NCBI RefSeq assembly: GCF_022267315.1
Contig: NZ_JAIKLE010000011.1
Coordinates: 62,001-126,000, forward strand
Length of the DNA stretch: 64,000 nucleotides
Direction: 5' to 3'
DNA from: Maribellus maritimus
Lineage (GTDB): Bacteria; Bacteroidota; Bacteroidia; Bacteroidales; Prolixibacteraceae
Shown piece by piece: positions 61,493 to 64,000 of this stretch. Made by a program: the position numbers and the translations under genes. The notes beneath the pieces are model-generated. The model was not told the DNA's origin. It did not search any database and saw only the letters and a list, made by a program, of their open reading frames with translations. Positions within the stretch are counted from its first letter, which is position 1. Each line of letters opens with the position of its first letter.

Positions 61493-63136
61493 TTAATTTT
61501 CAGGAATTTTAAAAATCTCTTCAACTTCCTTTAATTCGGTTTCTTTTCTTTTTTCATCCCAGTTCAACAACGTAGCAGCAATATTTAGAACTTTCGCCAG
61601 TGTTTCTTCTCCCGGATGACCAAGCGTTCCGATTCCGGTTCTTCTGAATAAAATATCACTCAATTTTATTGACATCTCATTTTGAATGGCGTAAACAACC
61701 TGAGCTTCAATTTCGCCATCAGCATTTAACCTTGCGGAAAGTCCTTTTTCTTTCGCCAAAAGCAAGAGGGAATCAATCTCGGTTCCATACATCTTGCAGA
61801 GAAAATCAATTTGTTCTCCTTCAAATTCAGGATTCTCTTCTGTTTTCTCATCAGCAAAACGTTGAAAATTTTCAATATCACTTCCTCTTAAAAATTTTGA
61901 AGTTGAAATTGACACAATAGGTTTCTTTCCTTCCTTTTTAAAAAGATAGTTAACTACATTTTCCGCCAGGCTGCGGCTCGTGGTATATTTTCCCCCTTCA
62001 ACGGTAATAACACCGGGGATTCCGTCTTTTTCGTGATCAACAATTTCATATTTCCGCGATGATTCGTATACATCTTTTGTTTGATCTTCTACAAGCGGTC
62101 GTAACCCCCCGTATACAAACTGAACATCGGAATATTGTAATTTTTCTTTCTCTCCAAACACTTGATTTACCTCTTCAAGAAAATCGTTGACGGTACTTTT
62201 TGCTACTTTATATTCATCGGGTTTTCCAATAAATTCCTTGTCGGTTGTACCTATTAATGTGCGATTTCGCCAGGGAACAATAAAACAATGACGCCCGTTA
62301 CGGGTAGTTGCAGTTACGATATAATTGTTCACCAGTTTTTTGGTTATAAAATGAATTCCCTCGGAACGACGCAACACTTTTATTGAGTCCTTTTGTAAAG
62401 CTTTATTTACAATAACATCTGCCCACGGCCCGGAACAGTTGATCACATACCTTCCTAAAACATTATATTCATTGTTTGCAACTTTGTCGAAAACTTTACA
62501 TCCATAAACCTTTTTTTTATGTGACTTCTTTTCGAACAGGAAATCTTTCACTTCCGCATAATTTAGCACTTTTGCTCCTGCTTCAACCGCCGATTTAATA
62601 AATGCAAGTGTTAATCTTTCCGGGCTAAAGCTGATACAGTCGTAATATATTTGTGAGTATGATAATCCATCAGAGATTAAACCGGGTTCCAGATTCAAAG
62701 CATTGTTTCTCGATATTGTTTTGTGCTTTGGCATTCTTTTACTTTTATCGCGCAACCAATTTTTATCAAACGAAAGTAAATCGTACAGGATCATTGCTGC
62801 TTTCAGCATCCATCCCGGAGTTTTGCCATTTTTATACCCCGTTAAAAGATAGGGTGCAGGATGTACAAAATTTGGTGCAATATTGGTTAAAATCCTTCTC
62901 TCACGAAGTGATTCCCGAACCAGCTTCAATTCCATTTTTGCCAGATAACGTAGTCCGCCGTGGATCATTTTGGAAGTCGCCGCTGATGTTGCTCCACCAA
63001 AATCATCTTTCTCAAATAATGCCACCGAAAAACCCCTGGTTACAGCTTCATAGGCAATTGCGGCGCCCGTGATTCCGCCTCCAATAATCAAAACATCAAA
63101 ATGATTGTCTTTTATAAAACTTGTTGTTCTTTTCAC
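61493..63136 (-). CDS. glpD: FAD-dependent glycerol-3-phosphate dehydrogenase
   Basis: A 547-residue flavoprotein: N-terminal FAD-binding D-V-L-I-I-G-G-G-I-T-G-A-A-I-A-Y-E-A, then A-T-S-A-A-T-S-K-M-I-H-G-G-L-R-Y-L, the GlpD signature. The substrate part has I-V-P-W-R-N-R-T-L-I-G-T-T-D and V-E-G-G-K-Y-T-T-S-R, and a C-terminal helical domain follows (450-547). It oxidises sn-glycerol-3-phosphate to DHAP and passes electrons to quinone at the membrane. It is paired with the AGPS-like gene. No glpF or glpK is adjacent. Confidence 0.92.
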   Translation of the reverse strand: MKRTTSFIKDNHFDVLIIGGGITGAAIAYEAVTRGFSVALFEKDDFGGATSAATSKMIHGGLRYLAKMELKLVRESLRERRILTNIAPNFVHPAPYLLTGYKNGKTPGWMLKAAMILYDLLSFDKNWLRDKSKRMPKHKTISRNNALNLEPGLISDGLSYSQIYYDCISFSPERLTLAFIKSAVEAGAKVLNYAEVKDFLFEKKSHKKKVYGCKVFDKVANNEYNVLGRYVINCSGPWADVIVNKALQKDSIKVLRRSEGIHFITKKLVNNYIVTATTRNGRHCFIVPWRNRTLIGTTDKEFIGKPDEYKVAKSTVNDFLEEVNQVFGEKEKLQYSDVQFVYGGLRPLVEDQTKDVYESSRKYEIVDHEKDGIPGVITVEGGKYTTSRSLAENVVNYLFKKEGKKPIVSISTSKFLRGSDIENFQRFADEKTEENPEFEGEQIDFLCKMYGTEIDSLLLLAKEKGLSARLNADGEIEAQVVYAIQNEMSIKLSDILFRRTGIGTLGHPGEETLAKVLNIAATLLNWDEKRKETELKEVEEIFKIPEN

Positions 63137-63284
63137 AGACTATTGTTTGCCTAAATTTAGTTTTTATTCAAATGATAAAAAACTATTCGCCATAATGATT
63201 GTTAAATAGACAAATGAAATTAAAAACGATAAAATAGCAGAGTATCTCATCTTATTTTTAAAGTTTCATAAATAAAATCGTTTA

Positions 63285-63319
63285 TTTGTTTTCATTTTAA
63301 AAAAATATTTTCATATTTG
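63285..63319 (+). promoter_or_regulatory. Promoter of the leuA operon
   Basis: TTTG at 63285-63288 and CATATTTG at 63312-63319 (7 of 8 to TAnnTTTG), with a 23-base spacer. The start site would be near 63326, which gives a leader of about 220 bases with the attenuator elements. Confidence 0.55.
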
Positions 63320-63341
63320 CAGCAAATCGTAAGCAAAACGA

Positions 63342-63413
63342 ATGAAAAACACGATTAACATATCAATTCTTAGCCTAATTCTAGGTATTATTCTTCTAAT
63401 TAAGAAGAAATGA
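63342..63413 (+). CDS. Leader peptide of the leucine operon attenuator
   Basis: A 23-codon frame, ATG to TGA, encoding MKNTINISILSLILGIIL then LIKKK. Seven Ile and five Leu codons (all Leu codons CTA or CTT) occupy residues 5-20. There is no Val codon. Its stop codon overlaps the 5' arm of the antiterminator. A ribosome that reaches the stop would block that arm; one stalled for Ile- or Leu-tRNA would leave it free. This is the layout of a branched-chain amino-acid leader peptide. A short membrane peptide is a less likely alternative. Confidence 0.8.
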   Translation: MKNTINISILSLILGIILLIKKK

Positions 63414-63462
63414 GAATGGTGTGTTATTAAAAGATATTTGGAAAAAGTGAAGCCATTCTCAT
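63410..63462 (+). promoter_or_regulatory. Antiterminator hairpin of the leuA leader
   Basis: The arm 63410-63419 (atgagaatgg) pairs perfectly over 10 bases with 63453-63462. The 3' arm is shared with the 5' arm of the terminator at 63451-63477, so only one of the two can form. Confidence 0.75.
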
Positions 63463-63482
63463 CATAAGAGGGTGGCTTTTTT
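63451..63482 (+). terminator. Intrinsic terminator (attenuator) before leuA
   Basis: The arm agccattctc (63451-63460) pairs with gagggtggct (63468-63477) over 10 bases, two of them G-T pairs, with a seven-base loop. A run of six T (63477-63482) follows. It lies 66 bases before the leuA start and should stop transcription when Ile and Leu are plentiful. Confidence 0.85.
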
Positions 63483-63547
63483 CATGTGAAGCATTTGACA
63501 GAGAAATTAAAGAAAAATAAATTTCAAATAATAAATTACAGATTACC

Positions 63548-64000
63548 ATGAGTGACAGACTTTACATTTTCGACACAACTTTGAGGGACGGAGAACAGGT
63601 TCCGGGTTGCCAGTTGAACACAGTGGAAAAGATTGAAGTCGCCAAAGCATTGCAGGAGTTGGGAGTCGACATTATTGAAGCAGGATTCCCCATCTCAAGC
63701 CCTGGTGATTTCGAATCGGTAGTTGAGATTTCAAAAGCGGTTACATGGCCAACAATTTGTGCCCTGACCCGCGCAGTAAAAAAAGATATTGATGTTGCTG
63801 CTGAATCACTAAAATACGCAAAAAAAGGACGTATTCACACAGGGATTGGAACATCAGATTTTCACATCTACCACAAACTAAACTCGAATCCGGAACAAAT
63901 AATTGAACGGGGAGTTGAAGCTGTAAAATATGCAAAAAAGTTCGTTGAAGATGTTGAGTTTTATGCTGAAGATGCAGGCCGAACAGAAAACGAATACCTG
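63548..64000 (+). CDS. leuA: 2-isopropylmalate synthase, C-terminus beyond window edge
   Basis: An ATG at 63548 opens 151 codons that run off the right edge. The product begins with the HMGL-like TIM barrel: [15 protein letters not shown] at about 7-21 with the metal-binding Asp and Arg, [10 protein letters not shown], and [10 protein letters not shown]. It condenses acetyl-CoA with 2-ketoisovalerate, the first step of leucine synthesis. The T-L-R-D-G-E-Q-x-P-G motif is shared with citramalate and homocitrate synthases, but the Ile/Leu leader upstream supports leuA. It is controlled by the attenuator described above. Confidence 0.85.

Follow-up and report, generated by a model that had tools for sequence, protein, structure and literature searches.

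Results

The window (the whole stretch of DNA analysed, 64,000 nucleotides of Maribellus maritimus) ends within leuA, the first gene of an operon which, in the annotated contig, has the order leuA-leuC-leuD-cimA-like-leuB, all genes after leuA lying beyond the window. The closest named relatives of the LeuA protein are from Draconibacterium and Maribellus, at 89-92% identity for about six best loci among the best 80. The upstream neighbour of leuA is a divergent glycerol-3-phosphate dehydrogenase-like gene, and the 263 bases preceding leuA contain a leader ORF, an antiterminator and an intrinsic terminator, arranged as follows.

63312..63320, + strand: probable promoter -7 element (CATATTTGC), with the conserved NATATTTGC motif
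63342..63413, + strand: leader ORF, MKNTINISILSLILGIILLIKKK, 23 codons, stop TGA at 63411-63413
63356..63372, + strand: segment 1 of a probable 1:2 helix, pairing with 63411-63426 in the MFE fold of 63321-63490
63410..63419, + strand: antiterminator 5' arm (segment 2), ATGAGAATGG, overlapping the leader stop codon
63449..63482, + strand: intrinsic terminator, stem 63449-63460 x 63468-63479, T-run 63477-63482
63453..63462, + strand: antiterminator 3' arm (segment 3), CCATTCTCAT, common to the terminator
63548..64000, + strand: leuA (2-isopropylmalate synthase; NCBIfam match), first gene of the operon, extending beyond the window end

Anatomy of the leader

A first-pass annotation had described a complete attenuator before leuA, all parts of which were found again on rereading, i.e. 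the 23-codon ORF with 12 Ile/Leu codons, the 10-bp antiterminator and the mutually exclusive terminator with its T-run. The ORF contains 7 Ile, 5 Leu and no Val codons; 12 Ile/Leu among the 22 post-start codons corresponds to p = 3.7e-5 relative to the composition of 43 window ORFs. The antiterminator (63410-63419 with 63453-63462) is a perfect 10-bp helix with a duplex energy of -12.9 kcal/mol, and the terminator hairpin (63449-63479) has -16.0 kcal/mol, with T continuing through 63482; the two have one arm in common and are mutually exclusive. The antiterminator 5' arm, originally placed as starting at the stop codon, does overlap the TGA, but its exact start is one base earlier, at 63410. 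The pattern TGAGAATGG-N20-45-CCATTCTCA occurs once in the 64-kb window and in 0/100 shuffles, and a full-architecture scan of both window strands, with a threshold of at least 6 Ile/Leu/Val in 12 codons (hereafter density), returned the leuA site (density 10) and one weak opposite-strand match (density 6).

The promoter proposed in the first-pass annotation stands as a conserved NATATTTGC motif at 63312-63320, but without a sigma-70 match; a sigma-70 scan gives nothing useful in this phylum. Bacteroidota promoters resemble NATATTTGC-type motifs. The motif lies at most 140 nt upstream in 32/33 genus leaders and 45/47 other family leaders, and is 16-25 nt ahead of the leader start in 75 of the 77 leaders that have it.

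Searches of the window against 4227 Rfam families, among them those for leader peptides and T-boxes, gave no match at gathering score, and the nine matches to 63100-63700 were all irrelevant and far below threshold. A T-box or other known riboswitch was rejected for want of an Rfam match.

Folding of the whole leader joins leader codons 5-11 to the antiterminator arm in a 1:2 helix. In the 28 distinct rows of 30 aligned genus leaders 86.8% of its cells are paired, with codon shuffles scoring nearly as well; the mean score is 21.0 versus 18.9 for the codon-shuffle control, with 9/80 loci clearly better. Because codon-shuffled leaders nearly match it, we regard this modelled protector/pause helix as only probable. 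It is one of two additions to the first-pass annotation, the other being the cimA-like gene, which would explain the Ile codons.

The product of this gene, the fourth of the operon, scores 404 bits against Leptospira citramalate synthase (PDB 3ble) and 152 bits against the best isopropylmalate synthase; its score with NCBIfam NF042433 (676 bits) is under the cut-off of 950, and the name citramalate synthase-like is thus provisional. The genome also encodes an IlvA that scores above its own cut-off, and Ile can thus be reached by another route. In 32/35 genus genomes a leuA paralogue follows leuA on its contig at a distance of about 3.4-4.3 kb, that of the window's own genome alone having been identified as CimA-like. 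Between leuC and leuD (L003:3535-3890) there is also a small protein-like reading frame that switches frame midway.

Conservation of the leuA leader in the genus and family

A full leuA orthologue was present in 35/37 genomes of the genus sample; the element is readable in 34/35 of their leuA upstreams, and 33/35 pass the detector. In one case (L038) the contig end cuts the element, with both arms and the terminator still visible. In a 2.2-Mb genome (G025, L030) the leader has decayed to a terminator remnant, without the antiterminator 5' arm or a clean Ile/Leu ORF.

In the family sample, 132 of 140 genomes have leuA, and 113 upstreams were used, i.e. 35 from the genus and 78 others (80 fetched of 97, less L209 and L210, the upstreams of which were unusable). 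The family detector asked for all three parts (ORF, antiterminator, terminator) and a density of 8 or more; its first version lost many real cases, as stems absorbed the T-run, and was revised after inspection of the misses. The full architecture was found in 80/113 upstreams, with densities of 8-10, compared with a maximum of 5 in 904 shuffles. In 28 of the 33 misses the end of another gene lies 5-277 nt ahead of leuA; named by eye from C-terminal motifs, 15 of these genes are IlvC-like, 11 IlvN-like and 2 other. The other five comprise three with an element visible by eye but a short T-run, one cut by a contig end and one decayed.

The stop codon lies -3 to +4 nt from the start of the antiterminator arm in 79 of the 80 family leaders, a position in which a terminating ribosome would mask that arm. 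The alternative frames of the leader ORF contain stops in 80/80 and 65/80 family leaders. Among 22 distinct genus ORFs, the 11 mostly-Ile/Leu positions (picked post hoc, codon 20 excluded) have Ile or Leu at 239/242 residues, the two often being swapped; N6, S8 and G15, outside the Ile/Leu block, are nearly invariant.

The comparison with relatives proposed in the first-pass annotation reveals conservation of both the Ile/Leu-rich peptide and the two pairings. In an alignment (A1) of 76 distinct cores from the 80 family leaders, the terminator has 98.4% of cells paired, with two doubly changed pairs (12 cells), and the antiterminator 99.6%, with one doubly changed pair (1 cell, in one sequence); these percentages are partly built in, since the detector requires both helices, though little so in the genus, where 33/35 pass. 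There is little covariation, given how constant the arms are, and the near-invariance of the shared arm is as expected from its need to pair in two ways. Neither the length nor the sequence of the inter-arm spacer is constant across the family. In the genus alignment (A2, 30/33 leaders; L033, L036 and L037 were omitted as their 5' ends differ), the spacer, e.g. GTATGTTGATTAACGATATT, often has the form GTTG...CGATAT, with ATAT invariant, and could form a small hairpin within the antiterminator loop.

ilvD-headed operons and codon content

All 28 genomes with a gene close upstream of leuA have ilvD, 24 on the leuA contig, and an attenuator precedes ilvD in 27 rows representing 26 of these genomes (one ilvD is split over two rows). 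Their densities are 9-11, with Val in every one; 2/280 shuffles reach 7 and none is higher. In the remaining two, ilvD is cut by a contig end with arms and terminator visible (L361) or could not be anchored (L363). Because the leuA genes that lack the element behind another gene have it before ilvD instead, the attenuator in this family appears to accompany whichever gene comes first in the transcription unit. In one genome (G139, L143), an IlvC-like gene ends 337 bases ahead of leuA with a complete Ile/Leu attenuator between; this may be operon-internal and is a possible exception to the head-of-unit rule.

Genus ilvD leaders (n = 31, from 31 of the 35 genomes with a match) have means of 3.6 Ile, 4.1 Leu and 3.7 Val, with at least two Val in 31/31, and genus leuA leaders (n = 33) have 5.5 Ile, 5.7 Leu and 0.12 Val. 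All 80 family leuA leaders have both Ile and Leu in their densest 12 codons; a single Val occurs there in 4/80, two in 0/80, and Val anywhere in 13/80. Thus, as read from these sequences, the control codons match the predicted products of the operon, being Ile and Leu for leuA-headed and all three for ilvD-headed operons. The Ile and Leu specificity proposed at first pass is strengthened by these Val-adding ilvD leaders of the same genomes and by the CimA-like operon gene; the leuA operon plausibly makes Leu and, via the CimA-like gene sharing LeuB/C/D, an Ile precursor.

The first-pass annotation had also remarked on the lack of Val and the use of only CTA and CTT for Leu; this holds for the M. 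maritimus leader, whereas CTC, CTG and some TTA occur as well in the leaders of relatives. In the genus leaders, Leu is CTN in 175/188 cases compared with 847/1680 in the 43 window ORFs, and CTA makes up 22% of Leu codons compared with 5.6%, these leader counts coming from related rows, so that p-values are inflated by kinship. The 47 leaders of other family genera have 33% CTA and 0% TTG. Among more distant named Bacteroidales, 18 leaders have 38% CTA, compared with 2% in 61 leuA genes, and TTG, at 21%, is not avoided there; the genus ilvD leaders have 25% TTA, and avoidance of TTA is therefore not general. Overall, the rare CTA is enriched about 4- to 19-fold in leaders compared with genes.

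Leaders beyond the family and before other operons

From a larger set of named leuA loci the best 80 were kept, of which 3 were too short and 77 were tested; 35/77 have a density of at least 7. Within these, L040-L058, mostly from species or genera of the family survey, pass in 17/19 cases and L059-L119 in 18/58. Several of the remaining 40 named loci (e.g. L093, L102, L106, L114) have an Ile/Leu-rich ORF and a terminator, operon position being disregarded. In 9/18 more distant named leaders, GAAGTGAG is found in the arm and pairs with its complement. A phylum sample of 29 new leuA loci gave 2 with a leader, both from the same order as the window, 15 with a gene ending at most 200 nt upstream, and 12, all outside the order, in which no gene was seen close upstream and no leader was found by the detector.

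For ilvD upstreams outside the genus, 19/70 pass a density of at least 6 (maximum of 5 in 70 shuffles), 9 of these 19 (L278-L300) looking like coding sequence and not being counted. From the other 40 ilvD upstreams, which are from class and phylum relatives, 10 pass; by eye, all of these but L335 look real, and 8 of the 9 come from outside the order of the window. Beyond Bacteroidales the distribution of the attenuator is thus patchy. Three ilvD upstreams of class relatives (L320, L324, L330) have short ORFs that are rich in Ile and Val but nearly devoid of Leu, with terminators after them (by eye in L320 and L324); their specificity may differ from that of the window's family.

Two other amino acid loci of the window's own genome have leaders. 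The hisG upstream (L121, G000:C114) contains a leader ORF encoding HHRHH together with a strong terminator, GGCTTGCC...GGCAAGCC, and is a probable his attenuator. The trpE upstream (L128, G000:C168) has two Trp-rich leader ORFs in tandem, MKKLNTIWLPWWGLLT and MKLINKNIWWWQSNFLQNREEK, the latter read by eye, and there is a separate intrinsic terminator after each, making it a possible double attenuator.

Discussion

The leuA leader is very probably a ribosome-mediated transcription attenuator. Its anatomy, its conservation and the correspondence between its codons and the operon can be read directly. At a probability of about 0.9, we propose that it is of the classic kind, tuning the leuA-leuC-leuD-cimA-like-leuB operon to the levels of charged tRNA-Ile and tRNA-Leu. 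Stalling, the order of folding, termination and the metabolic role are what we infer. RNA polymerase would begin just upstream of the leader ORF, which a ribosome would then translate. With Ile and Leu plentiful, the ribosome at the stop codon would cover the antiterminator 5' arm, the terminator would fold and transcription would end near 63482; with the stop region covered, the remainder is calculated to fold with the terminator at -17.9 kcal/mol. With either amino acid short, the ribosome would stall in the Ile/Leu block, leaving the 5' arm free, and pairing of arm 2 with arm 3 would block the terminator and so allow transcription of leuA. In an untranslated leader, segments 1 and 2 would probably pair and the terminator would form. 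This scheme assumes tight transcription-translation coupling in Bacteroidota. Computed with the usual ribosome footprint size, the whole arm stays accessible when the ribosome stalls at codons 5-18, as do 9/10 of its bases for a stall at codon 19 and 6/10 for one at codon 20; the stall at the last Ile codon, with 6/10 arm bases free, counts against the mechanism. Ile would be sensed beside Leu because the fourth gene of the operon looks like a citramalate synthase, and LeuB/C/D would serve both pathways.

The extent to which both amino acids are sensed may be questioned. If the attenuator sensed Leu alone (or Ile alone), the remaining codons would be incidental; Leu is the residue most clearly singled out by the CTA enrichment, and IlvA offers another route to Ile. 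We nevertheless consider such single-residue control rather unlikely, given that both residues occur in the densest block of all 80 family leaders, that the operon itself has a CimA-like gene and that 32/35 genus genomes have the leuA paralogue about 3.4-4.3 kb behind leuA.

The hydrophobic core and basic KKK tail of the peptide would suit a small single-pass membrane protein, with the hairpin an unrelated terminator or UTR structure, but near absence of Val, Ala, Phe and Met from the core (239/242 Ile/Leu) is hard to reconcile with this, as are the Val-rich ilvD leaders of the same genus, the enrichment of rare CTA codons, the holding of the stop codon at the antiterminator arm (within -3 to +4 nt in 79/80) and the detector's finding of no such ORF where leuA follows another operon gene; we hold a membrane protein to be highly improbable. 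Control by a trans-acting protein, or by a metabolite or tRNA riboswitch, with the ORF secondary, would give a reason for the near-invariance of N6, S8 and G15 outside the Ile/Leu block and for the invariant ATAT in the genus spacer. Against it, the window has no Rfam match at gathering score (those in 63100-63700 being irrelevant and far sub-threshold), the inter-arm spacer differs in length and sequence across the family, and the codon content follows the operon products, something not required of a ligand-binding RNA; we consider control of this type very unlikely. Ribosome-mediated attenuation responding to both Ile and Leu is the preferred reading.

To our knowledge, leader-peptide attenuators are best known from proteobacteria, as the first-pass annotation held. 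Clues from Bacteroidota are, however, already in print (PMC9723704). In that report, Flavobacterium psychrophilum has, as in Maribellus, structured 5' regions and short peptides before amino acid operons, some present in other genera and without Rfam hits; it differs in that pheA and hisG are among the conserved cases, and the section considered describes neither a leuA element nor a codon analysis nor a test of mechanism (PMC9723704). In Bacteroides thetaiotaomicron, short ORFs reminiscent of leader peptides are mentioned in another study (PMC7366714). No leuA or ilvD attenuator in Bacteroidota was found in the titles and abstracts of the literature searched, which covered few subscription papers. 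A study by Lopatovskaya et al. 2010 is said, by its title, to concern attenuation of amino acid and aminoacyl-tRNA operons across bacteria, and may include Bacteroidota.

In Salmonella and E. coli, alternative antiterminator and terminator structures precede leuA, as here. Their leu attenuator is also alike in that Leu control codons, the rare CUA among them, occur in its leader peptide (PMC1183508). In contrast to it, the Maribellus leader adds Ile codons, belongs to another phylum, is not expected to have a Shine-Dalgarno sequence and precedes an operon with a cimA-like gene. The Staphylococcus aureus ilvD attenuator likewise has an Ile/Leu-rich leader peptide, a terminator and an alternative structure, and suppressor mutants within it and a reporter response to Leu are reported; it differs in heading an ilv-leu operon and in that its antiterminator is described as pairing with the poly-U tail rather than with the terminator 5' arm (PMC5794164). 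Both the mechanism and the kind of element are therefore classic, the leuA element adding another case, one without an Rfam family and conserved in a family and its relatives in which such switches have received little study; since no Rfam family matches it, Rfam-based annotation would miss it.

The use of CTA in leaders is favoured by theory and by experiment in Salmonella, in which changing CUA to CUG in the leu attenuator lowered its sensitivity, UUA and UUG being predicted to be worse (PMC1183508). The increase in CTA and decrease in TTA/TTG in the family reproduce, in an unrelated phylum, the prediction of selective tRNA charging for E. coli (PMC1183508).

Within a single genome, the leuA leader and the ilvD leader form a natural specificity control. 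A conserved attenuator that needs a ribosome close behind the polymerase would provide a direct assay of transcription-translation coupling in Bacteroidota. Because Bacteroidota ribosomes fail to recognise Shine-Dalgarno sequences (PMC9976891), both leader translation and coupling become testable with such an element. We incline slightly to the view that ribosome-mediated attenuation is an old and general control of Bacteroidales amino acid operons, with the attenuator placed at the start of each transcription unit, formed anew as operons merge or come apart, and recoded to match the amino acids that the unit makes. If so, leader initiation without Shine-Dalgarno sequences and close spacing of ribosome and polymerase would be reliable enough in this phylum to be used for regulation.
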